Part shown: positions 21,100 to 35,166 of the stretch, piece after piece | Numbering within the stretch: position 1 is the stretch's first letter | How the letters are laid out: each line of letters begins with the position of its first letter | Source: Phycisphaerae bacterium | Lineage (GTDB): Bacteria > Planctomycetota > Phycisphaerae > UBA1845 | Length of the DNA: 42,679 nt | Assembly (NCBI GenBank): GCA_029260215.1 | Contig: JAJDDQ010000027.1 | Location: 1 to 42,679, forward strand | Direction of reading: 5' to 3' | Position numbers and translations under genes: made by a program | The notes under the pieces: model-generated | The model's database searches: none | Told to the model about the DNA's origin: nothing | Seen by the model: only the letters and a program-made list of their open reading frames with translations

Positions 21100-21212
21100 C
21101 AGATTTGATTCGTTCGTAGAAACCCCGCTTTCGGTGAAATCACCCCCTCTGGTGATAGCGTCAGGACCGTTTTTTCCGGTGATTTGGGGTTCTTACGAAT
21201 GAATCAGATTTG
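21100..21212. repeat. Long inverted repeat at the 3' end of the response regulator gene
   Basis: The left arm (21100-21126, CAGATTTGATTCGTTCGTAG then AAACCCC) is complementary to the right arm (21186-21212, GGGGTTCTTACGAATGAATC then AGATTTG) at 22 of 27 positions. Most mismatches are transitions that would be G-U wobbles in RNA. An inner pair, AAATCACC (21137-21144) and GGTGATTT (21178-21185), extends the stem. The right arm covers the last codons of the regulator. It may act as a terminator for convergent transcripts or derive from a duplicated gene end. Confidence 0.6.
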
Positions 21213-21842
21213 ATAACCCTGGTGCTGGTACTCGGCGATGCGGTAGTAGAGTTTCCGCAGGCTGATGCCAAGCTGGCGGGCGGCGGCGGATCTGTTGCCG
21301 TCGTTGAGGCGAAGCGCCTCCATGATTTTCGCCCGCTCGATGTCTGCGAGCGTGCCAGCCGGCTCGGCTTCGGGCGGTGTTTCCGCGACGCTGGTTTCCC
21401 GTTCCATGTTCGGAGGCAATTCCATCGTGCCCATGCGCCGCCTCCTCGCGCGATCCAGCGCAAACTCCAATTCCCCGAGCGAGGCTGGCTTGGTGAGGAA
21501 ATCGACGACGTCGAGTCTGATGGCTTGCTTGGCGGCCTCCAAGCTTCCAAAGCCGGTCAGTATGATGAACTCCGTGCTCGGCCAGCTCTTTCGCGCAATC
21601 TCGAACAGCTCGATCCCGTCCATGTCCGGCAGGTTGAGATCGAGCACGACGATGTCCGGCGTGGCGATTTCAAAGACGCGCAATGCGTCGTCGCCGCGTG
21701 CCGATTCAGCGACGTCAAACCCCATGTCGGGAATCGCTCTGGTCAACACGTGGCGAAGTCGCGGTTCGTCTTCGACCACGAGCACGCGCATGCGCCTGTT
21801 CAAGCTCTCACGATCGTTTGAATCGGTACTCATCTTGGGCAC
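21204..21842 (-). CDS. Response regulator, ActR/PrrA (RegA) type
   Basis: The protein has 212 residues: a receiver domain (MRVLVVEDEPRLRHVLTRAI) with phosphoacceptor Asp68 (PDIVVLDLNLPDMDG) and Lys in DFLTKPA, a short acidic linker, and a Fis-type helix-turn-helix at the C-terminus (NRSAAARQLGISLRKLYYRI). It lacks the AAA+ domain of NtrC proteins, as in the ActR/PrrA/RegA group, which control redox or acid responses. The coding region overlaps the histidine kinase gene by 13 bp, and both are on the reverse strand. It is probably the output of that kinase. Targets are unknown; proximity to metal-efflux genes is suggestive only. Confidence 0.92.
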   Translation of the reverse strand: MPKMSTDSNDRESLNRRMRVLVVEDEPRLRHVLTRAIPDMGFDVAESARGDDALRVFEIATPDIVVLDLNLPDMDGIELFEIARKSWPSTEFIILTGFGSLEAAKQAIRLDVVDFLTKPASLGELEFALDRARRRRMGTMELPPNMERETSVAETPPEAEPAGTLADIERAKIMEALRLNDGNRSAAARQLGISLRKLYYRIAEYQHQGYQI

Positions 21843-23314
21843 GCCGGCAATCTAAGAACGAATCGGCTTCCCTTGCCCGGGCCGTCGCTTGCCGCCGAAA
21901 TCGTCCCTCCGTGTGACTCCACGATGGCGTGCGTGATGGCAAGTCCCAAGCCGGTCCCGCTCTTGTGGTTGCGGCGTCGCGTTGTGAAGAACGGCTCAAA
22001 TACCTGTTCGAGCGCGTCGGCTGCGATGCCCACTCCGTTGTCTGTTACCGACACTTCGACGCGGCCGTTGCGGTGAATGCCTTCGATGATTATTATTCCG
22101 TTTCCTTGTTCCACAGAATCCAGCGCGTTGATTGTCAGGTTCAAAATGACCTGCTTCAGTTCGGTTTCGTTGCCCATGACCTCGAGTTGCCGATTACCGT
22201 TGCAACGGACCGTGACCTTTCGGCCCCGGTATTGTTTGAGAGATTGTAGCATGGTTGCGATGTCCGCTGCCACATGCCCCAGAGAAACGCGCTCGCGCGG
22301 GCTCTCGCCGCTCGACGAAAGCGAGAGGAGCTTCTCCGTGATATCCTTGCACCTGAAGGACTCTTCGCAAATGATTCGGAGCCCGCTACCCACTTCATTC
22401 AGCGGCGGGCTGCCCTCGACCTTCCTTAGCTCTTTGAGGCTGAGTTCCGCGTATCCGGAGATAATGTTAAGCGGGTTATTGATCTCGTGTGCCACACCAG
22501 CCGCCAGGTATCCCACGCTGGCAAGGCGTTCCGAGCGAACAAGCTCCTTGCTTTTGATTCGTACTTTTTCCTCGAGGTCGCGATGCAGCGTACTGAGTTC
22601 ACGTGCCATGCGGTTGAATTCATCCCCGACTTCGGCGAACTCGTCGTCGCCTTCAATCGCGAGATGTTCGTCGAGGTGACCTTCGCCGAAGCGACGCGCG
22701 CCGTCGCGGAGTCGGCGCAGCGGTCCGATGATGCTGCGGTACTGCCAGAGGCTCATAGCCACAGCAAGCATCGCGATTGAGACAGATGAGATTACGGCTG
22801 CGGCGATGGTGAAAGCCATCGTATCTGTAGCGGTGCGCTGCATCTGAACCATCGAGTGATCGATCATGTCGGACGTGTTCTTTAGGTGGGTGACCGCCAA
22901 TTCCAATCGCGCAAATATCGTATCGTTCAAGGAGGAAGTGGTGTTCAAATCGGCTGATACGGAGCGCACCAGATCGAGGGCTGCCAGTGTGTTGTCGTGT
23001 TCTCTGGCTTCGTGGGCAGGCTCGACCAGGCGCTGGGCGTCCTGAAAACCCAGAAATTTTTGTAACAATCCAGCCGCGGAAGCCAGTTCCTCGGTGGTTG
23101 CGGCGATTTCGGCCTTGTCGGACTTGAGAACAATGTGGGCGTGGGCCACGCGGAACATCGCCCGCTCGACCAAACGCACCTCGCGGTATTCGTCGAAGGC
23201 AACGTTCACGTCACGGTGCAAAGTGCGCAAACCCCAAAGCAGCGCGCCAACAAGAATTGACAAGCCTGCTGTCATCAGGATGAAACGCAACTTGATACGA
23301 CGACTGAGCGTCAC
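21830..23314 (-). CDS. Membrane sensor histidine kinase
   Basis: This 494-residue protein has TM1 (about 9-30), a periplasmic helical sensor region (about 35-160), TM2 (about 167-190) and HAMP (about 192-245). A HisKA domain follows with phosphoacceptor His276 (LAAGVAHEINNPLNIISGYA), then an HATPase_c domain with LNLTINALDS, DNGVGI and GTGLGLAI. The periplasmic part looks like a four-helix-bundle sensor, rich in charged heptads, with no small-molecule pocket identified. It is the first gene of a two-gene reverse operon with the ActR-type regulator. The stimulus is unknown. Confidence 0.95.
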   Translation of the reverse strand: MTLSRRIKLRFILMTAGLSILVGALLWGLRTLHRDVNVAFDEYREVRLVERAMFRVAHAHIVLKSDKAEIAATTEELASAAGLLQKFLGFQDAQRLVEPAHEAREHDNTLAALDLVRSVSADLNTTSSLNDTIFARLELAVTHLKNTSDMIDHSMVQMQRTATDTMAFTIAAAVISSVSIAMLAVAMSLWQYRSIIGPLRRLRDGARRFGEGHLDEHLAIEGDDEFAEVGDEFNRMARELSTLHRDLEEKVRIKSKELVRSERLASVGYLAAGVAHEINNPLNIISGYAELSLKELRKVEGSPPLNEVGSGLRIICEESFRCKDITEKLLSLSSSGESPRERVSLGHVAADIATMLQSLKQYRGRKVTVRCNGNRQLEVMGNETELKQVILNLTINALDSVEQGNGIIIIEGIHRNGRVEVSVTDNGVGIAADALEQVFEPFFTTRRRNHKSGTGLGLAITHAIVESHGGTISAASDGPGKGSRFVLRLPACPR

Positions 23315-23651
23315 AGGATGTGGCCTCCATATTCCGTTTCCACCTCAATCATTATACCGCGCAGTCCTGAGGGACGCCTACGTTCAGGTTTTGGGGCTGC
23401 AAATTTTGCACGCCGCCGCCGGAATCCACGATTGTGAAAACGACGCACGCTCGATTAGGAGGCTTCCAGCCCGTTGATTCGCGTTGGCAAGCGTTTTCGA
23501 TCGACTCGCCCGCGTGAAAGTTTCTGATTTGTTTCGATGCAATCTTTGCACTCTCCTGCCGCCGGCAATGCACCCGATATACAATCGGGAGATGGTGACC
23601 CGCTGTCATCGACGCGGGGTTTCGGTGGTTTGGCAAAAAGGAAACTGAGGC
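23315..23651. other. Divergent intergenic region upstream of kinase and biosynthetic operon
   Basis: The 337-bp gap should carry promoters for both the reverse kinase operon and the forward cluster starting at 23652. I find no convincing -35/-10 pair. An AT-rich GATATACAAT at 23576-23585 could be part of a -10 for the forward cluster. No gene is supported here. Confidence 0.4.
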
Positions 23652-24113
23652 ATGCATATTCTCCACACATCCATTCCCGTTCGTGATCCGAAACGCGTGG
23701 CGATCGCGCTCGCCGAACTCGTCGACGGTGCAACGTTCGATTTTCTCCACCCGGGTTGCTACTTCGTGATGCTCGGTCAGCCCGGCGCGTTGATCGAGCT
23801 TTACCGCAAGGATATCGAACTCCGCCCAGGCAGCGAGGGAGAGCCGTGCGAACTGCTGGACGTGGATTCTCCGCCGAAATACACCGGGTCGCACACGGCG
23901 ATTCGCGTATCCGCCAGCGTCGAGCGGGTGCTGGAGATCGCCGGCTCCTACGGTTGGCGTGCTGAGGTTCATCGTCGGCGCGTCTTTTGCGTGATCGAGT
24001 TCTGGATTGAAAACGAGTACATGCTGGAGATTTTTCCGCCGGAGTTCGCGGCTGGGTACCTGGCAGCATGCGAACTGGCCACGTCCTCGGCGAAGCGTGT
24101 GGAAACGGTTTAG
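23652..24113 (+). CDS. VOC/glyoxalase-like small protein
   Basis: The 153-residue protein begins MHILHTSIPVRDPKRVAIAL and has a beta-alpha-beta pattern with CYFVMLGQPGALIELYRKD and a second half ending FWIENEYMLEIFPPEFAAGY. This resembles the two-unit vicinal-oxygen-chelate fold, where Glu and His residues bind a metal. No exact subfamily is recognised. AAGGA lies about 8 nt upstream of the ATG. It is the first gene of a tightly packed forward operon, 16 bp ahead of the cytochrome gene. Confidence 0.5.
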   Translation: MHILHTSIPVRDPKRVAIALAELVDGATFDFLHPGCYFVMLGQPGALIELYRKDIELRPGSEGEPCELLDVDSPPKYTGSHTAIRVSASVERVLEIAGSYGWRAEVHRRRVFCVIEFWIENEYMLEIFPPEFAAGYLAACELATSSAKRVETV

Positions 24114-24129
24114 GGATTGGAAGACGATC

Positions 24130-24777
24130 ATGATGAGACAAGCAATCGAAATTGAATTCCGTTCGTCGCGTGCCGGTGGCTTCCTGTTCGTGCTCGCGAC
24201 GATCACCCTCGCGATAACGACTGGGAGTTGCGCCGGCCCGCAGCCGCTGCGCGTTGCGATCAACTCTCAACATGAATCTGCATACCTCAGTTTTGTCAAC
24301 GAAGCCAACCTCGACGGAAGAGCGGCGTTTGCGGAATGGATGGCACAGGAGCGGGGCGTTTCCACCGAAGAGGTTCTTCGCCTTGATAAACAGATCAGCA
24401 GCACGCGGAATCCGTTCGACGCATACAAAGACAGTCGAGTGGTCAGCCGCGGCGCTGTGATTTACACGGTCCATTGTCTCGGGTGTCACGGCGCGGACGC
24501 ACGCGGGCGTGGACCGGCTACGCTGGACGGATACCCTGCGAACGATTTCAAAACCTTTGGAAGCCGATTCGCGGCCACGCTCCATCGGGGTGCGCCACGC
24601 AAGTGGTTTCGTGTGATTCGCGACGGGGCTGGTGATACCGTTGAGTATCCTAACGCGACGACCTCCGCGATGCCGCCGTTCAGCGGGAAACTTGCGAACG
24701 AGCAGATTTGGCAGGTTATCACCTATCTGCAAACTCTCGATATCCACCCCTTAACACAAATGACGGAACGAGGCTGA
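24130..24777 (+). CDS. c-type cytochrome lipoprotein
   Basis: I start at ATG 24130 (215 aa); a longer open frame upstream overlaps the previous gene. A hydrophobic signal ends in GSCAG (lipobox-like). The single haem site is CLGCH (Cys116, Cys119, His120), followed by DARGRGPAT. The likely axial Met is in TSAMPPFSGKL, and the domain ends in the helix NEQIWQVITYLQTLD typical of class I cytochromes c. It would carry electrons in the periplasm for another enzyme of this operon. It lies 2 bp before the radical SAM gene. Confidence 0.88.
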   Translation: MMRQAIEIEFRSSRAGGFLFVLATITLAITTGSCAGPQPLRVAINSQHESAYLSFVNEANLDGRAAFAEWMAQERGVSTEEVLRLDKQISSTRNPFDAYKDSRVVSRGAVIYTVHCLGCHGADARGRGPATLDGYPANDFKTFGSRFAATLHRGAPRKWFRVIRDGAGDTVEYPNATTSAMPPFSGKLANEQIWQVITYLQTLDIHPLTQMTERG

Positions 24778-24779
24778 TC

Positions 24780-27047
24780 ATGCATCGCGTGTACAAAGAC
24801 ATTGATCTCCCAATGCTGCCGGCGGTTGGTGGCCATTCGGCGGTGGCGTCCGGTGTTGTCGAATCCGTGGTTGCCAGCGCGCCGATGGACGGGCTGCGCA
24901 GCCTGCTTGGGCGTTTGGGTTTGCGGATTGAATCGAAGCCGATCGTGTGCAAAGACCTGAGCGATTCTTTGGTGCGTCTGATGTTTCCGGTGTCCGGCGG
25001 ACCCGTTGTGGATGGCGCGGTGGTGGCGATTGTTTGTCTTTTCGATCGCCAAAATGGTCGAACGCTGTACGCCCATCCGATGCACGCCGGCCCGGGCGTC
25101 AACCCGCTGGTGCGTCATCCTGATGGACCGATGGCCGGCCCGAAATCGCAGGCGGGTGCCGACGGTGTGCGCGCCAGCCGGCGTATCATCGAGCACAAGC
25201 AGGCCCTTTGGGATCGCTTCGTACGCGAGGAAGCTACACTGGGAGAGGTGGAGGCTGGTCGGCGATGGCGCGAGGGGTACTACTGGTCTTTGAATCGCCT
25301 GTACTTCTGTGCGGGGTGTACTGAGTGCAAGTGGGGCAGCCCCTTTTTCGACGGCCCTGACTCGTCATTACCACGCAGAGCGAGCGGTGCAGCCCCCACG
25401 ATTACGTCGTCGCGGTTGAATGATGCGCACACCGCCATTGTCGGCGACATCCTGTCCAGCGAGGCGTGGCGCGTCGAGTCGGGCTACGTGCAACGCGGCG
25501 GGTTCACTCTGATCGAAACGCCAGGTCTGCTCAAAGAAATTGATGATGAGTATGTTCAGGTCGTTTTCCCCACTGATGCATTGTTGCTGCAAGCAGGCTC
25601 GATCGTCGCGGTCGCGTTCACATACCATGCTCCGTCGCGGAGCGTTTCATTGTCGCACTGTCTTTGTGCGGGGTCCGAGGTAGAGATTCAGTTTCTAAAG
25701 GGCGACATTGCTTTCGGTCTGCCGCAGCCGCAGTCCGGTCAGGCCGGCGAAGACGCGATTGTGGCTTATCGATCATGGCGGCGCGGGGCGTGGTCGCGGT
25801 TCTGGCTGAACGAATTGGACAACGGCCTGGCCGTCGCGAGCGACCGGTGGCTGGGGGATTTCTGGGGCGCGTTGGAGACATTTTTCGGCGGCAACGACAT
25901 TGCATATGGCCAAGAGATAGTCTCGTCATTGCGCCGTCGTGATTCGTCGAACAAGCGTGCCGCCGCTCGCGGGTCTATCAAACTTCCGTCTCAGGCGCTT
26001 GAGAATATCGGTGGGCGATGTTTCGCCGGGCACGCAACGAATCGCAAGCCTACAGAATTGCGCGCGCTAGGTCTGTCAACGCTGATGGTGAATCTCGGGC
26101 ATCGTTGCAATCTGGCTTGCAGCCATTGTCACGTTGAAGCTGGCCCCGATAGAACGGAAGAAATGTCGCGCGAGACGGTCGATCTCGTGCTTCGTGCCTG
26201 CCGCGACGCTGAAATTGAGACGCTTGACATTACAGGTGGCGCTCCGGAGATGAACCCTCATTTTCGATATCTGGCGCGCGAGGCATCCCGGTTGGGCTGC
26301 CGCGTGATCGATCGGTGCAATCTAACGATCATCTTCGAGCCGGGCCATGAAGACCTCCCCGAATTTCTGGCTGAAAACGCTATTCAGATTACAGCCTCAC
26401 TGCCGTCGGAGCACGCTGACGTGGCCGATCGGCAAAGGGGGATGGGCACGTTCGCCAAGAGCATCGCCGCTTTGCGGAAGTTTAATCAGTTGGGATACGG
26501 TCAACCGGGCAAGGGGTTGACATTGAACCTGGTCGTCAATCCTTCAGAAACTGAACTCGGCCCTCCGCAGGACGAACTGGAAAGGCAATTCAAACGCGAA
26601 TTGCGCGATGTCCACGGGATCGTGTTCGACCGACTTCTCGTCATGAACAACATGCCGATCAATCGCTTTGAGCATTATCTGAAACGCGAAGGGCGTTGGT
26701 CGGAGTATATGAACCGCCTGGTGGGCGTGTTCAATGCTGACACTACCGATGGCCTGATGTGCCGGCGTACGCTGTCGGTGGGATACGACGGTCGTTTGTA
26801 CGACTGTGATTTCAATCAAATGATGGACATCCCCCTCAGTCATGGATTGCCCGCACACATTCGCGATCTGGATGCTTCCCTGCTGCGCTTTCGCATAATT
26901 CACACGGCTGGTCACTGCTTCGGGTGTTCGGCTGGGGCAGGCTCGTCATGCAACGGTGCCATTGCGACATCCTCTTGTCATAAGCCGGTGAACAGAAACG
27001 AAAGCGGGCACTTGGAATTTGTACAACTGCACGAGGTAAAACGATGA
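24780..27047 (+). CDS. ArsS-type radical SAM protein with duplicated N-terminal region
   Basis: The ATG at 24780 gives 755 residues. Residues about 430-755 match the ArsS-type family (arsenosugar biosynthesis radical SAM protein): the [4Fe-4S] motif Cys443-x3-Cys447-x2-Cys450 (CNLACSHCHVEAGP), DITGGAPEMN and a C-terminal Cys-rich region (HCFGCSAGAGSSC). Family members are normally about 320-350 residues. Here about 430 extra residues precede the core and form two related halves (about 35-190 and 225-372); each has an FPV/FPT beta segment, a W-RF segment and a Trp-rich helix. No arsM or ars gene is near, so an arsenosugar product is uncertain. Likely a neofunctionalised radical SAM enzyme. Confidence 0.82.
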   Translation: MHRVYKDIDLPMLPAVGGHSAVASGVVESVVASAPMDGLRSLLGRLGLRIESKPIVCKDLSDSLVRLMFPVSGGPVVDGAVVAIVCLFDRQNGRTLYAHPMHAGPGVNPLVRHPDGPMAGPKSQAGADGVRASRRIIEHKQALWDRFVREEATLGEVEAGRRWREGYYWSLNRLYFCAGCTECKWGSPFFDGPDSSLPRRASGAAPTITSSRLNDAHTAIVGDILSSEAWRVESGYVQRGGFTLIETPGLLKEIDDEYVQVVFPTDALLLQAGSIVAVAFTYHAPSRSVSLSHCLCAGSEVEIQFLKGDIAFGLPQPQSGQAGEDAIVAYRSWRRGAWSRFWLNELDNGLAVASDRWLGDFWGALETFFGGNDIAYGQEIVSSLRRRDSSNKRAAARGSIKLPSQALENIGGRCFAGHATNRKPTELRALGLSTLMVNLGHRCNLACSHCHVEAGPDRTEEMSRETVDLVLRACRDAEIETLDITGGAPEMNPHFRYLAREASRLGCRVIDRCNLTIIFEPGHEDLPEFLAENAIQITASLPSEHADVADRQRGMGTFAKSIAALRKFNQLGYGQPGKGLTLNLVVNPSETELGPPQDELERQFKRELRDVHGIVFDRLLVMNNMPINRFEHYLKREGRWSEYMNRLVGVFNADTTDGLMCRRTLSVGYDGRLYDCDFNQMMDIPLSHGLPAHIRDLDASLLRFRIIHTAGHCFGCSAGAGSSCNGAIATSSCHKPVNRNESGHLEFVQLHEVKR

Positions 27048-28564
27048 CTGACGGTCGTGTCGAAGTGCTTCTGACGGGTGCGAGCGGGTTTCTGGGGCAT
27101 TACCTTCTTGCAGAATTGCTGGCGTACCCCAATGTGCGTTGCCATGTATTGCTGCGGTCGCCGATGTCCGCGAGTGCGGTGCGTCTCGATGGATTGCTTG
27201 CGGACATTGGTTTGAACCTCTCAGCTTTGATCGCCGAGAAACGAATCGTACCCGTGGAAGGGGGGCTGCCGGATTCGCTGAGCGGTGTGGATTTCAGCGG
27301 CATTGACGTGGTGCTGCACGCGGCTGGCAATACGACGTTTCACGCCAACGGATCAGGCGAGCCAATGAAGACGAACGTCGACGGCACACGGGCCATGCTG
27401 ACGCTTGCTGCCGACGCGGGGGTTGACCGATTCGTCTATGTCAGCACAGCCTACGTATGCGGTGAGCAGGTCGGCCATCTGCCGGAAGCGTTCTACCCAA
27501 CCCTGCCGCCAGTGCGTAATGACTACGAACACTCCAAGTGGGAGGCAGAACGCCTTGTTTGGGAATGGGGGGGGCAGCAGGGCGTCGCGACGATCTGCCG
27601 GCCTTCGATCCTGTTTGGTGACAGCCGGACCGGGCGAGCCAGTGCCATGAAGGGACTGTACTTGGTGGCCAAGGCGACGGAAATTCTCGCGCGTGCGATG
27701 GACAGCGGTCGCGAAACCGACCGCCACCAAATTCCATTGCGAATACTCGGCCGCAGCGATGCGACGTGCAACGTCGTGCCCATCGATTGGGCCGCTCGTC
27801 AGATCGCGGGCATTGCTATGAAGCCCGCCATTGAATCGTCGGTGTACCACGTCACCAACCCCGATCCGCCGACGCATGACGAGATCAAATGCTGGCTGGA
27901 GGAGTACTTCGACATCGCCGGTGGACGGTTCAGCGGTGCGAAGTGGCCGCTTCAAGACGCCAACCACTACGAAGATTTGTTTTATTCTCTGGGCAATATT
28001 TGCCTCGAATATTTTCGTCACGGCTTGACGCATGAGTCGCGGTGTGCAGCTAGCGTGCTAGGGGGACATCGATTGCTCGATCGCGAAGCGTTTTTCCGAT
28101 GCATGAAATACGCCCAGGCAACAAACTGGTGTCGGAGTCGGAGTGAAGCTGAAGTTTTTCCCGCGCCAATCCGCAACGTCGATTCGAAATGGTATTTCGA
28201 GAGTTTCCTGCCGGAATCTGTGCCGCTGTCCGTTGTTGCGAAAGTCAATGAACTGACGGCGATCGTGCGGTATACGATAACCGGCTCAGACGGCGGAAGC
28301 TGGGTCAGTCGCTTTGATCGCGGCCGATTGGTTGAAACCCAGTCCACGCCCGCCACCCTGGAACCGGAGTTCGAGTACCGGTTGTCCTGCGAGGATTTGG
28401 CGGACGTCGTGACGTGTCACAGGCCGTTGCAGGATGTCTTTTTCCACGGCAGCGCCGAGATGTTCGGCGATGTCGAGCGGGCATTGAAAATGGTCCCGAT
28501 TATTGGTGAATTCATCAAGGAATTCCCAGTGGTCGATAGGGAATGCCCGGTGCCGGTATGCTGA
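27044..28564 (+). CDS. Extended SDR (thioester-reductase-like) fused to SCP2-like domain
   Basis: The ATG overlaps the previous stop (ATGA). The protein has 506 residues. An N-terminal Rossmann domain carries LLTGASGFLGHYLLAELL, DVVLHAAGNTTFHAN and the catalytic YEHSK (Tyr-x3-Lys), typical of extended SDRs, especially NAD_binding_4 reductases that reduce acyl thioesters. From about residue 400 the sequence (IVRYTITGSDGGSWVSRFDR, FFHGSAEMFGDVERAL) resembles the sterol carrier SCP2 fold, which binds lipids. The combination suggests reduction of a lipid-bound substrate. The SCP2 assignment is moderately supported. Confidence 0.75.
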   Translation: MTDGRVEVLLTGASGFLGHYLLAELLAYPNVRCHVLLRSPMSASAVRLDGLLADIGLNLSALIAEKRIVPVEGGLPDSLSGVDFSGIDVVLHAAGNTTFHANGSGEPMKTNVDGTRAMLTLAADAGVDRFVYVSTAYVCGEQVGHLPEAFYPTLPPVRNDYEHSKWEAERLVWEWGGQQGVATICRPSILFGDSRTGRASAMKGLYLVAKATEILARAMDSGRETDRHQIPLRILGRSDATCNVVPIDWAARQIAGIAMKPAIESSVYHVTNPDPPTHDEIKCWLEEYFDIAGGRFSGAKWPLQDANHYEDLFYSLGNICLEYFRHGLTHESRCAASVLGGHRLLDREAFFRCMKYAQATNWCRSRSEAEVFPAPIRNVDSKWYFESFLPESVPLSVVAKVNELTAIVRYTITGSDGGSWVSRFDRGRLVETQSTPATLEPEFEYRLSCEDLADVVTCHRPLQDVFFHGSAEMFGDVERALKMVPIIGEFIKEFPVVDRECPVPVC

Positions 28565-29259
28565 TCGAAACAGCCATCACTGAAGAGAATGTTCGCATTC
28601 AGGGGCAGGATCGAATGTTGGAAGGAATCCTGTCCTACCCCAACGATGGGGCTTGCAGCAGCGCGCTGATCGCGGGGCCGCATCCGTTTCTTGGTGGCGA
28701 CATGCGCAACAATGTCGTGAGTGCATTGTTGAAGGCCTTGGTGCCTCAGGGGGTCGTGTCGCTGGCATTCAATTACGGCGGTGTCGGGGGGAGTGAAGGC
28801 GGACCGACGGATTGGCCGGCAGTGATGTCGAATTTCTGGAAGGATGGAACATTCGCCGAGGAGAGCGATTGGATTGAGGACACGAGGTCAGCGGTGGCGG
28901 CGTTGCGACAATGGTGTGATTTGCCGCCATTGCTCATCGGGTACAGCTTTGGTTGTTGGGCGATTGTCAGTAATCTGCAGGAGTTACGTGCGTCGGCCAT
29001 CGTTTTGATTTCTCCCAACTTCAAACAGCATGCTTTCGACCAGCTCTCCGAGTGCTCGGCACCGCTTCTACTGATTCACAGCGACAGCGATTTCACTTGC
29101 AGCTTGTCTGAGGTCGTTGCATGGGCTGATTCAATCCGTGAACCCCGGAAGCGTGTCCAATTGGCTGCCGGCGAACATTTTTTTCGCGGGCATGAGGCGA
29201 AGGTTTCGGGCACTGTTTTGGATTTCCTGAAGGGTCACAATATTCTTTGGACGGATTAG
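28558..29259 (+). CDS. Alpha/beta-hydrolase
   Basis: The ATG at 28558 overlaps the preceding gene by 7 bp. The 233 residues show the alpha/beta-hydrolase fold: the oxyanion region near AGPHPFLGGDM, nucleophile Ser in GYSFG, the Asp in LIHSDSDFT and the His in AGEHFF. Size and motifs resemble dienelactone-hydrolase-like or thioesterase enzymes. Its place between a thioester-reductase-like gene and an adenylating-enzyme gene suggests release or editing of an acyl intermediate. Cytosolic, no signal peptide. Confidence 0.82.
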   Translation: MLIETAITEENVRIQGQDRMLEGILSYPNDGACSSALIAGPHPFLGGDMRNNVVSALLKALVPQGVVSLAFNYGGVGGSEGGPTDWPAVMSNFWKDGTFAEESDWIEDTRSAVAALRQWCDLPPLLIGYSFGCWAIVSNLQELRASAIVLISPNFKQHAFDQLSECSAPLLLIHSDSDFTCSLSEVVAWADSIREPRKRVQLAAGEHFFRGHEAKVSGTVLDFLKGHNILWTD

Positions 29260-29260
29260 C

Positions 29261-30349
29261 GTGAAGAAAGTGGTGGACAACATTGGTGTTGAGGCGCGGC
29301 TGCGCAAGGTATTCGCAGCCCACTTCCATCCTGAGCGAGGCTCTCGATACTGGCTGGATCGCGCCGGGAATCTCGGATTCGATCCCTGTACCGATATCCG
29401 GAGTGTCGCCGATTTGCATCGGTTTGGAATGACGGATCCGAAGGAACTTGCAAAGTATCGAGTTGAGGACTTTCTTCCTCGGTCGTTACTTGGTCGAAAG
29501 TCGGAGTTGACGATCGCTCAGACCGGAGGCACGCTGGGTCAGCCCGCGTGGACTGCTTACCAGGAGCACGAATTCCGCGAAGCTTTCGTTGATCCTTTCG
29601 TGGCGGCAGCCAATTATTTGAATTTCCCCTCCAGTGGAAACTGGTTGTACGTTGGGCCGTCCGGGCCGCACATTATCGGTCGAGCCGCGGACGCCATCGC
29701 GCGTGCGACCGGGGCGATGATGCCGTTCAGTGTGGACTTTGATCCTCGCTGGGCAAGAAAACTCGCCTCCGGCAGTTTCGCTTCCGAACGGCATATGCAG
29801 CATATTGTTGACCAATCTCTCGCAGTTTTGGAGACAGAGGCGATCACCGTGCTTTTCTCAACGCCGGTGGTTGTTCGTGCGCTCGCCGATCGCATGACTA
29901 AAGAGCAGCGAAAGAGGGTTCGCGGTGTTCACTACGGGGGGATGGCCATCGAGACGAGCGAGCTGGCGGACCTTCAAGAACAGGTGTTTCCGGACGCTGT
30001 TCATCTCTCCGGGTATGGCAACACGCTTTTCGGCTGTTGTCTGGAAATTAATGTGGCCGTCGATCGTGAACTGATCTATTACCCATATGGCGACCGGATT
30101 CTGTTCGGTGTTCTCGATCAAGAGGGCGATCGAACTGATTGCGTAGTCTATGGCGAGGCTGGAGCGGAAGGCTCGCTGGTTTTTTCGAGGTTGGATGAAA
30201 CGGTTCTTCTGATTAATGTGGCTGAGCGGGATTGGGTTCGACTTCGCGAGCCGCCGGCGAACGCTCCCGAGGGGTTTGGATTGATGGGTGTCGCATCTCC
30301 GACACCAGGAATCGAGCAGCGGAATGTGTGTTCGGTTTCACTTTACTAA
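29261..30349 (+). CDS. PaaK/LuxE-like adenylate-forming enzyme
   Basis: A GTG start immediately follows the previous stop. The 362-residue protein has the A3-like loop TIAQTGGTLGQPAW (compare SSGTTGKP in the ANL superfamily) and YGNTLFGC at the place of the second ATP-binding motif. The short length and lack of the usual C-terminal hinge domain resemble LuxE acyl-protein synthetases or truncated PaaK proteins. It likely adenylates a carboxylate for transfer to a thiol. The substrate is not predictable. Confidence 0.7.
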   Translation: MKKVVDNIGVEARLRKVFAAHFHPERGSRYWLDRAGNLGFDPCTDIRSVADLHRFGMTDPKELAKYRVEDFLPRSLLGRKSELTIAQTGGTLGQPAWTAYQEHEFREAFVDPFVAAANYLNFPSSGNWLYVGPSGPHIIGRAADAIARATGAMMPFSVDFDPRWARKLASGSFASERHMQHIVDQSLAVLETEAITVLFSTPVVVRALADRMTKEQRKRVRGVHYGGMAIETSELADLQEQVFPDAVHLSGYGNTLFGCCLEINVAVDRELIYYPYGDRILFGVLDQEGDRTDCVVYGEAGAEGSLVFSRLDETVLLINVAERDWVRLREPPANAPEGFGLMGVASPTPGIEQRNVCSVSLY

Positions 30350-30365
30350 AGACGAGGAATGACTC

Positions 30366-31883
30366 ATGACACTACCGACTTGCAAAAGGGCGATCCGCGT
30401 GGCATCACCCGGATGCCTGATTGGCCTGTTATTGATGGGCGGATGTGCTCCGTCGAGATTCGACAATGCGATCGTGTATTATGCGGAGCGAGCGTCGGTA
30501 TCCGACGCAGCTGCGCGTCACACGACTGCGTCTCCCTACTACAGATTCAATACCGCCTTGCTCAGCGATATGGACGAAGCCCTTGAGCAAACCGATGACC
30601 GCGGCCAGCGCGCGTTGGCTACCGCCGTGTTGCGTGACGCGAATGCGTTGAGTTTGGAGTCAAGTGCGAATGAGATCGAGCGCATGCCCGCAGAGACGCG
30701 CGAGTCGCTGGCGAAGCTGGCAGGAACAGAAGCCACGCCGGCCGACCTTCAGCGTCATCTCGCCGACCTTGCGGACGCAGCGCTGGAACAGGATATTGAG
30801 GAAGTGGAGCAGCTTCCGGTCGAGGATTTGCGGCGGAAGTTGCGAACGATTCGCGAGGGCGTTGAGGATCTCCCGGATGACAAGGGGAGATCGCAGCGTC
30901 AGGCCTTTTTCGCGTGGGCGGCGTTCCTGACCAATGACGGCATTGCCCGGGAAGAATCCAAGCTCCCGGAAAAGTGTATCGCCAAGGCAGAGAAAAGGTT
31001 TAATCGTGTTGCGATTTGGCGACCCGCTGAATATGCGATGGACACGCTTCTTCAGAGGTATGCCCCTGTCATTGGCGTGGAGTGGCCTGATCGGCGTCAA
31101 TATGACGATACCGATGACAGGATCGGAGCGGTCAGGTTGTCGAACGGTCGAAAGGGTGTTGAGGTATACATCGACCCGGCAGATCCGACTATTTATTCAT
31201 ACACCAGCGTCGCCAAAATCCACGGGCAGCGGTTGCAGCAGCTTAACTATGTCTGGTGGTTTCCCGAGCGTCCCGAGATGGCAAAGGGCGATCCGGTGGC
31301 AGGCCCCATTGACGGCGCAGTGCTCCGCATCACGCTCGACTCCGACAATGAACCGAGTTTCATTGAGACGTCTTTGAATTGCGGCTGTGCTCATGGCGTC
31401 TTTGTTTCGGAAAAGGTGGAGGCTGCGGCGCGCAAGGTCTTCGGCGGCCCACTTCCCGACAAGCGGTTTGCGGTCGAGAGGGACGTTCCGGGGAAGTACG
31501 ACGTGGTCGTGATCGACACATTTGAAACAGGGCCTGCTCCGGGGCGTCCGCTGGTCCTTTCGTATGCGGGTTACCACGAAATTTGCCAGATCAAGTTTCT
31601 TGCTCCGGAGTCGTTCGAAATTGTGGAGGATGCGTCATACCGGATCGAGGGCTACGATTCGCTCGACCGTTTGCCGCTTGGGAACGGTATCGCGAGCATG
31701 TTCGGTTCTGACGGTCTGGTTCATTTCGCAGGTCGTCGCGAGGGTTTTCTTCTCGCTCCTTCGGGTATTCTGAGTGCCGGGCAGCCTCGGAAGCGCGGCA
31801 CGCAGCGAATCCGCTGGGACGATTATCTGCACGACGATCCGCGATTGTTGGAAAAAACGCTCCGAATTCCCACACTCGATTGA
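30366..31883 (+). CDS. Lipoprotein of unknown function
   Basis: This 505-residue protein has a signal with lipobox (LLLMGGC). Residues about 55-185 are helical and charged (EDLRRKLRTIREGVEDLPDD), and the C-terminal 300 residues are beta-rich with conserved-looking SLNCGCAHGVFVSEK and SYAGYHEICQIKFL. I recognise no family. It lies 16 bp after the adenylating enzyme and 9 bp before the glycosyltransferase, so it belongs to the same operon and probably acts in the periplasm or at the outer membrane. Confidence 0.7.
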   Translation: MTLPTCKRAIRVASPGCLIGLLLMGGCAPSRFDNAIVYYAERASVSDAAARHTTASPYYRFNTALLSDMDEALEQTDDRGQRALATAVLRDANALSLESSANEIERMPAETRESLAKLAGTEATPADLQRHLADLADAALEQDIEEVEQLPVEDLRRKLRTIREGVEDLPDDKGRSQRQAFFAWAAFLTNDGIAREESKLPEKCIAKAEKRFNRVAIWRPAEYAMDTLLQRYAPVIGVEWPDRRQYDDTDDRIGAVRLSNGRKGVEVYIDPADPTIYSYTSVAKIHGQRLQQLNYVWWFPERPEMAKGDPVAGPIDGAVLRITLDSDNEPSFIETSLNCGCAHGVFVSEKVEAAARKVFGGPLPDKRFAVERDVPGKYDVVVIDTFETGPAPGRPLVLSYAGYHEICQIKFLAPESFEIVEDASYRIEGYDSLDRLPLGNGIASMFGSDGLVHFAGRREGFLLAPSGILSAGQPRKRGTQRIRWDDYLHDDPRLLEKTLRIPTLD

Positions 31884-31892
31884 GCGGGCTGC

Positions 31893-33119
31893 ATGTCTAC
31901 AGCGACGGTAATACTCCTCGCCGGGTGGGGCGCTATTTGCAGCGTGTGGTTCGGGTTGATTGTGGCTCAGGGGCGGGCGCGTCGGGACGGGTTGTTTCTT
32001 GAGTTGGCTTCTGGGACTTCCGTAGATGCGGCGGCAGGCGAAAGCTCGCCGAGTGTCTGCGTTGTCATCGCTGCCAGAAATGAATCCGCAGATTTAGCCG
32101 CATGCCTGCGCAATGTTTTGGCGCAGGACTACCAGAATTTGTCAGTCTTGGTAATCGACGACCGTAGCGAAGACGACACGCGAGCGATCGCGCAGGAGCT
32201 TGCGCAATCGGATTCTCGCGTTCGGGTGGAGTGTGTTGACGAGCTGCCGCCGGGGTGGATGGGCAAGTCGCACGCATTGTGGCAGGGCACGCGCAGTGTC
32301 CGCGCTGACTGGTTGCTTTTTATGGACGTGGACTGCACGCTCACACCCGGAGCAGTCAGCCGGGCGGTCCGGGAAGCTCGCGAGCGCGGGGTGCAACTCC
32401 TGACACTTTGGCCGAAGCAGGAAGCGGGCGGGTTCTGGGAGCACACGATTATCCCGCTGTGCGGCGGCATCATCGCTCTTTGGTTCGGCTCCCGGCGGGT
32501 CAACGAGCCGGGCAGTTCGCTCGCGTTTGCCAATGGACAGTTCATGTTATTCGAGCGCGATGCGTACGAGCGCATTCACGGGCACGAAGCCGTGCGTTCC
32601 GCCATTATCGAAGACATCCCGTTGGCTGAGCATGCCAAGAGATCGGGATTGGCATGCTGGGTCGCTTCAGGCCGAGCGCTTGTTTCGGTGCGCATGTACG
32701 ACAACTACAATGCGATCCTGAACGGGTGGGCGAGAATATATGTCGGCGTACTTCGCAGCGGCGCGAAGATAGGACTCAGTATTATCTGGTTGGTTTTCGG
32801 CTCACTGCTTCCGTACATCGCTGCGCTTGGTTTGGCCACTTCGTTTTGTTCTACGTGGAGGTCGGGCGCGAAGATCAGCCCTGAACTCGTCTGCTTCGCG
32901 GCAGTTTGTGTCAATCACCTGGTTCTGCTGATGATCGCCAGTTACCGATTCTGGGGTATGGGCGGATGTCGGCGAATCGACTTGATCTGGTATCCGTTGT
33001 CGGTGGTCCTGGTGATACGCATCCTGGCGCGTTCGTGGTGGTGGCTGATCGTGAAGCGCCGGATTCCCTGGAGAAACACCGTCTATCGAATCGGCCGGGA
33101 GGGCGTGATTTCTGGTTAG
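31893..33119 (+). CDS. Membrane GT2 glycosyltransferase (HpnB-like)
   Basis: The protein has 408 residues: an N-terminal membrane helix (VILLAGWGAICSVWFGLIVA), a GT-A domain with VCVVIAARNESADLAACLRN, VLVIDDRSEDDT and the metal-binding MDVDCTL (DxD-type), acidic IIEDIPLAEHAKRSG, then C-terminal membrane helices (about 300-375). This layout matches glycosyltransferases of the HpnB/hopanoid- and carotenoid-associated group, which glycosylate lipids at the inner membrane. It ends the operon, consistent with a glycolipid product. Confidence 0.85.
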   Translation: MSTATVILLAGWGAICSVWFGLIVAQGRARRDGLFLELASGTSVDAAAGESSPSVCVVIAARNESADLAACLRNVLAQDYQNLSVLVIDDRSEDDTRAIAQELAQSDSRVRVECVDELPPGWMGKSHALWQGTRSVRADWLLFMDVDCTLTPGAVSRAVREARERGVQLLTLWPKQEAGGFWEHTIIPLCGGIIALWFGSRRVNEPGSSLAFANGQFMLFERDAYERIHGHEAVRSAIIEDIPLAEHAKRSGLACWVASGRALVSVRMYDNYNAILNGWARIYVGVLRSGAKIGLSIIWLVFGSLLPYIAALGLATSFCSTWRSGAKISPELVCFAAVCVNHLVLLMIASYRFWGMGGCRRIDLIWYPLSVVLVIRILARSWWWLIVKRRIPWRNTVYRIGREGVISG

Positions 33120-33321
33120 GCGCTGTTGAATTCCTCTTGATCGTCATTTCTCGGTACTTCTGTGGCCGCCTCTATTCTGCATCGCGCGGTCGCCGATGAC
33201 GCTTATCGAGCGTCTGTTGGCTGTGCGCTGTCCGCGTTGACCGGTGCGGATTTCAAAACGATAATACATCCTGGGCTTGCCACGATCGTACCAGCGGTGG
33301 GGCCGTTGGCTGAGTGCATTC

Positions 33322-35166
33322 ATGATGACGTTGAAATCAAGGTTGGGACAGGGCGGTTTGGGCCGATGGCTGAGTTTGGTCGCGGTTGTGCTGCTGCTTT
33401 GCGGTTGCAAGGATGGCGCGGTCGACTGGTCGTTTTTGTTTCCGGACAAGGCTGAGGATATCGTTGACAAGACGGTTCCGCGCGACGCGATTCAGGATTC
33501 TCCCGCGTATCGCGACACGATCGCTGAGTGGGCTTACCTGGACGGGATGCGCCGGCTTCGCGTTCGGGGCTGGGGCATCGTTGTGGGGCTTGGGCGAAAC
33601 GGGTCACGGCGTTGCCCGTCGAGCGTGCGCAGCCAGATGATTCAGGAGATGTACAAGACTCGGGATTTCCCGAGGACGGGTGGTGCCATCACAACGCCCG
33701 AGCAGTTGATCGACGATATCGATACAGCCGTGGTTGCGGTGGAGGGCGAAATTCCAGCCGCCGCGACGGAAGATTCAACATTTGACATTATTGTTCGCGC
33801 GATTCCGGGCACGGAGACGACTTCGCTGGCTGGGGGGTGGTTGTTTCCGTGCGACTTGTCCATCTTTGTGTCGAAGGGTGGGACGAGTTGGATTCCGGGG
33901 CGCACGGTTGCGAGGGCTTCGGGACCGGTGTTTCTGAATCCGTACGGATTGAGTGAAGGCAGTGCGACGCGCACGAACGCGCGCGAAGGTGTGATTATCG
34001 GGGGTGCAACGCTCGACGAAGATCGGCGGATCAGGCTGATGCTCACGACGCCGTCTTATCCGCGTGCGGAGGCGATCGCCGACCGGGTCAACGAGCGTTT
34101 TGGCCGTGCGACGAGCCTGGTGGCTGATGCTGTGTCGCCGGGGGAGGTCAAGCTCCGCGTGCCGCCGAGTTACGCGGACGATGCCCGTCATTATCTTTCG
34201 GTTGTGCAGCATCTTTACATACCGTCCGCTCGTCCGGGTTTCATGTCGCTTCGTTTGCGCGAGTTGTCGCGAGCGTTCGCGACGTCGCAAGCTGCTCATG
34301 TCGAGATTGCGCTGTCGTGGGAAGGTGTGGGGCGGACGGCGTTGCCGGAAGTTAAGAAGTTCTACGATCACGCGAATCCGTCGATCAGTTTTCATTCCGC
34401 GATGGCTGGCGTGAGGCTTGGTGATCCCGCCGCGATTGATGTGTTGGAGCGTCACCTTTTTGATGCCGAGGGCGATTTCCGTCGTCAGGCCATCGAGGTT
34501 TTGGGAGGGGCGCGGCAGTCGCACCTGGCTGCTCGACCGTTGCGGCGGGCGATGAGTGACAGCGATCCGCGCATTCGCATTGCTGCGTACGAGGCGTTGG
34601 TGAAGCGCGGCGACCCGACGCTTGATGGTGTTCTGATTGGTGACGGCAAGTTCGTGATGGACCTCGTGCCGGGCGACGGGAAAAAGCTGATCTATGTAAA
34701 ACGTACGAAGGATCGGCGCATCGCGTTGTTCGGCGGTTCGATTCGTGCGCGGCCGCCGATGTTCTTTGCCTTGGCGGACAATTCGTTGTTCATCGATGCT
34801 GATTCGGGCGCGACATCGATGACTGTTGTGCGTAAAGCGCCTGTTGGCGGTGGGGTTTCGCCGCCGATTGACTGCGGCTTGAGCGCAAAGGAACTGATTT
34901 CGTTATTGGGGGGCGAACCTCCGCAAGGCACGGCGGAAACCGTACGGGGTCTTGGTGTGGACTACACATCGGTGGTATTGGTGCTTGCAAAATTGTGCGA
35001 GTCGGGGGCGCTTGATGCGGAGTTTTTGCTTGAATCCCCGACTTGGGACAGGATGGCGATGCGTCGCGATCAGGCGGGCCGACCTGAGGCTGAGACCGAC
35101 CTTGGCCGGTCCAGCGACGACGATGAAGGAAACGATGAAACGATTTTGGAGAACAAGAACGGATGA
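33322..35166 (+). CDS. FlgI-like domain plus HEAT-repeat lipoprotein
   Basis: I start at ATG 33322 (614 aa), giving a signal with lipobox (LLLCGCKDG). Residues about 80-310 resemble the flagellar P-ring protein FlgI: VRGWGIVVGLGRNGS, FDIIVRAIPGTETTSLAGGW, and strands SIFVSKGG and VKLRVPPSYADD. Residues about 360-460 form HEAT-like helices (DPAAIDVLERHLFDAEGD, RQAIEVLGGARQ, DPRIRIAAYEALV). No flagellar genes are nearby, so a P-ring-type beta structure reused in an envelope complex is inferred. It overlaps the next gene by 4 bp. Confidence 0.72.
   Translation: MMTLKSRLGQGGLGRWLSLVAVVLLLCGCKDGAVDWSFLFPDKAEDIVDKTVPRDAIQDSPAYRDTIAEWAYLDGMRRLRVRGWGIVVGLGRNGSRRCPSSVRSQMIQEMYKTRDFPRTGGAITTPEQLIDDIDTAVVAVEGEIPAAATEDSTFDIIVRAIPGTETTSLAGGWLFPCDLSIFVSKGGTSWIPGRTVARASGPVFLNPYGLSEGSATRTNAREGVIIGGATLDEDRRIRLMLTTPSYPRAEAIADRVNERFGRATSLVADAVSPGEVKLRVPPSYADDARHYLSVVQHLYIPSARPGFMSLRLRELSRAFATSQAAHVEIALSWEGVGRTALPEVKKFYDHANPSISFHSAMAGVRLGDPAAIDVLERHLFDAEGDFRRQAIEVLGGARQSHLAARPLRRAMSDSDPRIRIAAYEALVKRGDPTLDGVLIGDGKFVMDLVPGDGKKLIYVKRTKDRRIALFGGSIRARPPMFFALADNSLFIDADSGATSMTVVRKAPVGGGVSPPIDCGLSAKELISLLGGEPPQGTAETVRGLGVDYTSVVLVLAKLCESGALDAEFLLESPTWDRMAMRRDQAGRPEAETDLGRSSDDDEGNDETILENKNG

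Follow-up and report, generated by a model that had tools for sequence, protein, structure and literature searches.

EhpF, an adenylate-forming enzyme that lacks the C-terminal domain, acts with EhpG to convert an acid, through an acyl-adenylate (acyl-AMP), to an aldehyde, and in the Lux set an acyl-activating enzyme, a reductase and a hydrolase lie side by side. A comparable group of genes is present in the window analysed here, the whole 42,679-nucleotide stretch of contig JAJDDQ010000027.1 (assembly GCA_029260215.1, Phycisphaerae bacterium); the source genome comprises 4.97 Mb in 88 contigs, of which the window is contig 20. Within positions 23652-33119, eight plus-strand genes follow one another closely, overlapping slightly or separated by no more than 16 nucleotides (nt) (Table 1), and encode a short adenylating enzyme (AdE), a reductase fused to an SCP2-like domain (RedSCP2), an alpha/beta hydrolase (abh), a lipoprotein (lipo), a family-2 glycosyltransferase (GT2), a fusion protein with a radical S-adenosylmethionine (SAM) unit, a cytochrome c and a small protein (voc).

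The operon resembles LuxCDE in the adjacency of activating enzyme, reductase and hydrolase, but contains no match to the LuxE or LuxC families, and its reductase is a short-chain dehydrogenase/reductase (SDR). It resembles the hopanoid proteins HpnB and HpnN in its family-2 transferase and in a weak HpnN-like/MMPL-like gene found in relatives, although the operon-type proteins score far below both cut-offs. The closest likeness in reaction is to the EhpF/EhpG and GriC/GriD pairs of phenazine and grixazone synthesis, in which a short adenylating enzyme also adjoins a reductase and an acid passes through acyl-AMP to the aldehyde; GriC/GriD are described in PMC10179220 as an AMP-forming enzyme and a reductase that produce 3-amino-4-hydroxybenzaldehyde via the acyl-AMP. 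EhpG is assigned to the aldehyde dehydrogenase family in PMC11278526, whereas the partner in the operon is a thioester-reductase-type SDR with an SCP2 domain. Carboxylate-reducing biosynthetic clusters are known; the combination found here is apparently undescribed, and no paper recognisable as describing the operon was found in the open-access literature searched (one library). A preliminary description, made from the sequence alone, had called the operon uncharacterised and its product one not described to its author's knowledge.

We give an even chance to the reading that the operon encodes a lineage-specific form of a planctomycete carboxylate-to-aldehyde pathway, whose glycosylated product would be hydrophobic, bound to the envelope and perhaps naphthoquinone-like. 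We infer its substrate, product and order of reactions as follows: AdE would activate a carboxylic acid, most likely aromatic, to acyl-AMP, and RedSCP2 would reduce this to the aldehyde (or alcohol) while the hydrophobic substrate is held by its SCP2 domain. The acid, 1,4-dihydroxy-6-naphthoate or a similar compound, would come in related operons from an MqnD paralogue, and there a class III aminotransferase would convert the aldehyde to an amine; in the window's lineage a radical SAM protein with tandem N-terminal domains (N-domains) and an ArsS-like unit would instead modify the same scaffold. GT2 would glycosylate the product, the lipoprotein, joined in relatives by an MMPL-like half-transporter, would place it in the envelope, and electrons may pass there between it and the cytochrome c. 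If this is correct, planctomycetes, and possibly anammox bacteria, possess a pathway not described before, whose entry enzyme is open to test.

Conservation of the operon and its activating enzyme

Genomes carrying the operon were sought with a profile of lipo in two draws, of 397 genomes from the class and 392 from the phylum (G and L numbers below are our labels for genomes and loci). In the class draw 43 genomes matched at 1e-5, 21 of them strongly (E <= 1e-50) and 22 over the middle of the profile only; 13 matched in the phylum draw, five strongly. The middle-only matches (e.g. G000:C73:10002-10361) are shorter proteins, often of about 300 amino acids (aa). Stretches from all 24 distinct strong genomes, the window's included, were scored with profiles built here, giving a table of 25 rows, of which 24 are operon loci and one is a fusion gene detached from its operon (G014, L095).

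RedSCP2, abh and AdE were adjacent in 20 of the 24 loci, in the order RedSCP2-abh-AdE in 18 and RedSCP2-AdE-abh in two; three of the remaining loci (G027, G347, G015) are cut by contig ends, and in the fourth (G452) the examined stretch ended, with AdE lying further along the same contig. Distances between AdE sequences correlated with those of RedSCP2 at r=0.96 (n=20, comprising 18 adjacent loci and two wider ones; AdE identity 35-81%), a value reached in none of 2000 permutations. The same held, with 0/2000 permutations each, for abh (r=0.94, n=25), lipo (r=0.87, n=17) and the neighbouring histidine kinase (r=0.72, n=11), and GT2 gave r=0.89 (n=12; 5/2000 permutations as high). Rows covering less than 75% of a profile or scoring below 50 bits were dropped from these comparisons, and the RedSCP2 and abh sets take in some wider loci. 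GT2 was not seen in eight of the 24 loci, some of those cut short; in 13 loci, some covered partly, the histidine kinase adjoins the operon, and a response regulator is also conserved there. Conservation of the operon is far beyond chance.

The preliminary description had read the overlapping or nearly touching genes as a single biosynthetic operon, and both the gene types that it named, all present on the plus strand, and the adjacency and correlation of AdE and RedSCP2 bear this out; the contrary pattern, in which the genes occur apart with unrelated neighbours, was sought and mostly not found, the exception being the fusion of G014, which lies on a different contig from the operon. Several of its labels required revision. 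The first gene encodes a small uncharacterised protein and not a cytochrome c, and the radical SAM enzyme, correctly recognised as such, is a fusion of two N-domains with an ArsS-type/DUF3641 unit. The activating enzyme, labelled PaaK/LuxE-like, is closest to EhpF, and the glycosyltransferase, labelled HpnB-like, is of family 2 and scores 162.6 bits against the HpnB model TIGR03469, far under the cut-off of 379.25.

EhpF is the sole relative of AdE in the PDB at E <= 0.01 (phmmer 2.4e-32; profile 3.6e-37), the phmmer match spanning AdE residues 17-333. With 362 aa, as against 366-369 aa in the EhpF chains, AdE is not long enough to include the C-terminal ANL domain. A LuxE assignment was discarded: Pfam gave no LuxE match, just PF00501 at E 0.0011, below cut-off. 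Relatives of AdE on plasmids were matched in 28 records, and the 25 matches listed include 'arylcarboxylate reductase', 'phenazine biosynthesis protein', AMP-binding protein and unnamed proteins. Two of three plasmid neighbourhoods examined (L192, L193) adjoin a gene of the aldehyde dehydrogenase family, with chorismate-pathway genes in the cluster, and the third adjoins a polyketide synthase. An enzyme of EhpF/GriC type would have a partner reductase of the aldehyde dehydrogenase family; the partner found here is the protein with NAD_binding_4 and SCP2 domains. RedSCP2 matches thioester reductase domains, and its nearest solved relative is MxaA; the SCP2 match falls below the Pfam cut-off in the window's protein and above it in the relative at L160. 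What is chiefly new in the core is the pairing of AdE with a thioester-reductase-type SDR plus SCP2.

Two forms of the operon and the nature of its product

The operon occurs in two forms. Form B, to which the window belongs, is marked by the N-domain: in ten genomes, all of the window's family, two copies are fused to the ArsS-type radical SAM unit, and in three (G016, G050, G027) a single N-domain stands alone, with no radical SAM gene within the stretches. Form A has an MqnD-type gene near AdE (seven rows; that of G323 is a fragment) and, in five rows, a class III aminotransferase. The N-domain was present in 13 and the MqnD-type gene in seven of the 25 rows, and the two never occurred together (0/25).

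MqnD is 1,4-dihydroxy-6-naphthoate synthase; the MqnD-type protein of L156 matches PF02621 (VitK2_biosynth) at 183.4 bits. Of 30 VitK2_biosynth proteins placed in a tree, which did not take in the G323 fragment, six formed a separate clade (99/98), all with the IHE motif: the operon copies of G029, G171, G207, G240 and G566, plus a protein of G471 (G471_C72b). Five of these six genomes also carry an ordinary-type MqnD; in G029 the operon gene is the only MqnD-type gene seen, alongside an MqnA-type gene. A dedicated aminotransferase (58-100% identity) was found in G029, G207 and G171 but not in any of the 12 other genomes searched, and the form B genomes searched held general aminotransferases at 36-40% identity, or none at 1e-60. 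Nine of ten form B genomes searched have two VitK2_biosynth genes and the tenth, G014, has one. The window's lineage therefore lacks the MqnD paralogue and the aminotransferase, within genome completeness, and has not relocated them. A precedent is given in PMC4763440: the cluster for the glycosylated naphthoquinone macrolides PM100117/118 (gonM4, gonSL) holds a second mqnD together with an AMP ligase, has glycosyltransferases as well and in these respects resembles the related operons; unlike the operon, that cluster is based on polyketide synthases, and the window's own operon has no MqnD copy.

The core extends beyond these loci. A profile of AdE matched 121 of 392 phylum genomes at 1e-10 and 32 at 1e-80 or better, and 22 of these 32 fall in families f70, f115 and f118. 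Seven of these 22 were tested for hydrazine synthase alpha and all seven have it, which marks the seven as anammox bacteria; it is also present in G421, of another family, and was not found in G000, G171 or G472. RedSCP2 lay near AdE in 12 of 13 strong-tier loci (not L217), MMPL-like matches, mostly weak, were present in 12 (the Pfam MMPL check was limited to L218), and a class III aminotransferase matched in 11, seven strongly (>550 bits; anammox loci) and four more weakly (191-204 bits; L222-L225). No aminotransferase match was seen at L215 or L217, two loci that run into contig ends. The nine f70/f115/f118 genomes searched have zero to two VitK2_biosynth genes each. In the weaker, widespread tier of AdE relatives, RedSCP2 stood alongside in none of three loci examined (L226-L228); at L228 (G000:C25:272755-273732) the relative is a weaker second copy, E 5.8e-48, of a type widespread in the phylum. 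In the anammox locus L218 (9975-12017) a U32 peptidase gene (PF01136) lies between AdE and the aminotransferase, and L214 and L219 carry a gene that looks similar by eye. Ladderane synthesis was considered for the anammox link and set aside: the portion of PMC2649909 consulted describes fatty-acid-synthase clusters and does not mention the operon set.

An aromatic acid appears to fit AdE better than the fatty acid of the preliminary description, because the enzyme is nearest to EhpF, of a phenazine pathway, and because related operons contain the MqnD-type gene. The same two points, together with the class III aminotransferase of relatives and the finding that none of the eight operon genes matches an acyl carrier protein or ketosynthase family (Pfam, NCBIfam), count against the rival that survives best, a lipid pathway in which AdE would activate a fatty or branched acid, RedSCP2 would form the fatty aldehyde or alcohol and GT2 an envelope glycolipid or ether lipid. 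We regard this pathway as unlikely, though a serious contender: the NAD_binding_4 family matched by RedSCP2 also takes in fatty acyl reductases, and the core is present in anammox genomes.

Other observations weigh against the favoured reading. A lipid would be suited equally well by the SCP2 domain, the HpnB-like transferase and, in relatives, the MMPL-like gene. G471_C72b shares a contig with the operon but is more distant and runs on the opposite strand, and the copy closest to the operon in that genome belongs with ordinary MqnD; the operon copy of G029 may just serve menaquinone synthesis. The anammox core occurs without an extra MqnD-type copy, two VitK2_biosynth genes being the most in any anammox genome searched. 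The window's genome has neither a third VitK2_biosynth gene nor a dedicated aminotransferase, and the naphthoquinone link therefore rests on relatives; the window lacks the MMPL gene, and its genome holds only a 34% partial match. As for the glycosylated lipid proposed in the preliminary description, glycosylation is plausible though GT2 was unseen in eight loci, a lipid-like character is possible in view of SCP2 and the MMPL-like gene, and the sequence of activation, reduction, decoration and placement in the envelope is supported as functional classes only. A wider version of the aromatic reading strikes us as rather improbable: planctomycetes, with the anammox core, would make an unrecognised class of envelope-bound aromatic, naphthoquinone-like compounds off the futalosine menaquinone route by carboxylate reduction, and the window's lineage, under a two-component switch of its own, would have exchanged amination for a radical SAM step that evolved from arsenosugar synthesis and has ceased to need arsenic.

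The radical SAM fusion

The N-domain matches of the fusion lie at 24843-25304 and 25404-25898, and the radical SAM/DUF3641 unit at 26058-26963. The protein scores 408.3 bits against TIGR04167 (ArsS; cut-off 300), over model positions 4-303 of 303, and also matches PF04055 and PF12345. The ten fusions form a single clade (99/99), in which the three cysteines of the radical SAM motif and five near the C-terminus are invariant. The whole radical SAM plus DUF3641 unit and its core cysteines are common to ArsS and the fusion. Unlike ArsS, the fusion has two extra N-terminal domains, stands in a different operon and has serine for cysteine in SLPC(Y). This position is serine in nine of ten fusions, the window's included, and cysteine in the earliest branch (L154); in 23 non-fusion rows, from an alignment that used 24 of 80 ArsS-relative loci, it is cysteine in 17, tyrosine in four, serine in one and aspartic acid in one, and in a wider set it is cysteine in 73 of 84. 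The window's fusion thus passes the TIGR04167 cut-off but lacks the SLPC(Y) cysteine, which we took from the alignment as usual for the family. The source genome also holds a separate ArsS-type gene with SLPCY, which adjoins a phosphate-transporter-like gene by eye and has a GT2-like gene nearby; we take the TGA in it as its end stop, because a 330-aa open frame is present there. Among ArsS relatives without the cysteine, the neighbourhoods of L016, L025, L026 and L029, but not those of L028 and L031, were inspected by eye, and none showed the operon.

Adenosylation of arsenic is credited to a radical SAM enzyme, with ArsS cited, in the review PMC12159101. The radical SAM part of the fusion is an ArsS paralogue, joined to two copies of an unknown domain, and may have left arsenic chemistry after the fusion arose. 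That would make it an ArsS-type enzyme shifted to other chemistry. The basal fusion, L154, retains the ArsS cysteine and could still perform arsenic chemistry, which speaks against such a shift and, with the TIGR04167 score and the invariant core cysteines, for a second rival, in which the fusion is a true ArsS adding deoxyadenosyl to arsenic and the operon makes a lipid-linked arsenosugar. We consider this arsenolipid or arsenosugar branch quite improbable, given the serine in the other nine fusions, the separate SLPCY gene in the same genome and the operons that, within the stretches, have no radical SAM gene (G016, G050, G027 and those with MqnD). The case calls for caution with annotation, as a curated model labels the fusion ArsS despite loss of the usual cysteine.

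A model of the N-domain (predicted local distance difference test score, pLDDT, 82; 23 rows) contains strands and two long helices, and Foldseek returned no match at E <= 0.001. The best structural candidate, an amine oxidase domain fold (Z 7.0 over 67 residues), was treated as no assignment. In the metagenome-assembled genome of L015/L144 (5129-7466) the fusion gene is broken across two frames, through either a sequencing error or a genuine break. The detached G014 fusion (L095, G014:C145, 2581-8006) lies near a geranylgeranyl-reductase-like flavoprotein, below its family cut-off, and, by eye, a large hydrolase-like protein.

Regulation and the remaining genes

The divergent histidine kinase and response regulator, although outside 23652-33119, belong to the operon and would control it via the palindrome TGCAA-N3-TTGCA, to which the response regulator presumably binds. 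The palindrome was exact in 10 of 13 promoters associated with the two-component pair and present with at most one mismatch in all 13. Among the first 11 divergent kinase-operon gaps it was exact in nine, with one-mismatch sites in L151 and L156, and in 200 shuffles of these gaps no palindrome was common to more than two; of two promoters added later, L099 has an exact site (between response regulator and N-domain) and L149 a one-mismatch site. The 12 loci other than the window, 216,522 bases in all, contain 18 sites with at most one mismatch, 13 of them in the promoters examined. The window contains two exact sites and three allowing one mismatch; as many occurred in 19 of 100 shuffles, and therefore the window by itself would not reveal the motif. 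The genome holds 11 exact sites, against four for a reversed control, and of nine elsewhere than in the promoter, eight were inspected, six lying inside open frames and two between. Ten of 11 kinase-free operon loci lack an exact site, and the single one in L159 does not lie at its operon; none was found in L214-L229 (16 loci). That no product is built, and that the operon senses redox state or repairs the envelope by detoxifying an aldehyde or acid, we hold very improbable: the adjoining two-component pair with two of the genome's 11 exact sites, the cytochrome c and the lipoproteins would fit it, but adenylation, reduction, amination and glycosylation form a building order and the genes are co-inherited in the manner of a pathway.

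Table 1. Positions of the operon genes, the adjoining regulatory genes and the palindromes in the window
Feature	Position	Strand	Description
Response regulator	21204-21842	-	Receiver PF00072 and Fis-type HTH_8 PF02954
Sensor histidine kinase	21830-23314	-	Divergent from operon; NCBIfam histidine kinase matches
TGCAA-N3-TTGCA copy 1	23398-23410		Operator-like palindrome
TGCAA-N3-TTGCA copy 2	23538-23550		Operator-like; 101 bp before first gene
voc	23652-24113	+	153 aa; VOC (glyoxalase/bleomycin-resistance)-like by eye only
Monohaem cytochrome c	24130-24777	+	PF00034/PF13442; likely lipobox by eye; start set with homologues
Radical SAM fusion	24780-27047	+	Two N-domain copies and ArsS-type radical SAM/DUF3641; ATG start by homology
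RedSCP2	27044-28564	+	NAD_binding_4/thioester-reductase-type SDR fused to SCP2-like domain
abh	28543 (likelier start 28558)-29259	+	Alpha/beta hydrolase, PF12146
AdE	29261-30349	+	EhpF-like adenylate-forming enzyme, 362 aa
lipo	30366-31883	+	Lipoprotein, lipobox by eye; helical N-half
GT2	31893-33119	+	Family-2 glycosyltransferase, HpnB/CruG type

Gaps of 16 nt separate voc from the cytochrome c gene and AdE from lipo; the gap is 2 nt between the cytochrome c gene and the fusion, 1 nt between abh and AdE and 9 nt between lipo and GT2, and RedSCP2 overlaps the fusion by 4 nt and also overlaps abh. The voc protein is 73-77% identical across five relatives and matched no Pfam or NCBIfam family at E <= 0.1. 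The response regulator has an ActR/PrrA/RegA-like match, below cut-off, and no AAA+ domain match.

No Pfam family matched lipo, and Foldseek returned nothing at E <= 0.001. In an AlphaFold2 (AF2) model (19 rows; pLDDT 89.4), the C-terminal half resembles the NPP1/NLP fold with Z 9.2-9.7 in the top eight rows, at a root-mean-square deviation of 3.5-4.2 over 168-177 residues and only 7-12% identity; two of the top matches are, we assume, NLPs. We take this as a probable resemblance of fold and draw no function from it. The lipo relative of G471 (L160, 8702-10156) has a C-terminal thioredoxin-like domain. The gene after the operon (33277-35166) is of flagellar P-ring type by eye, and in several relatives an MMPL-like gene occupies this place.

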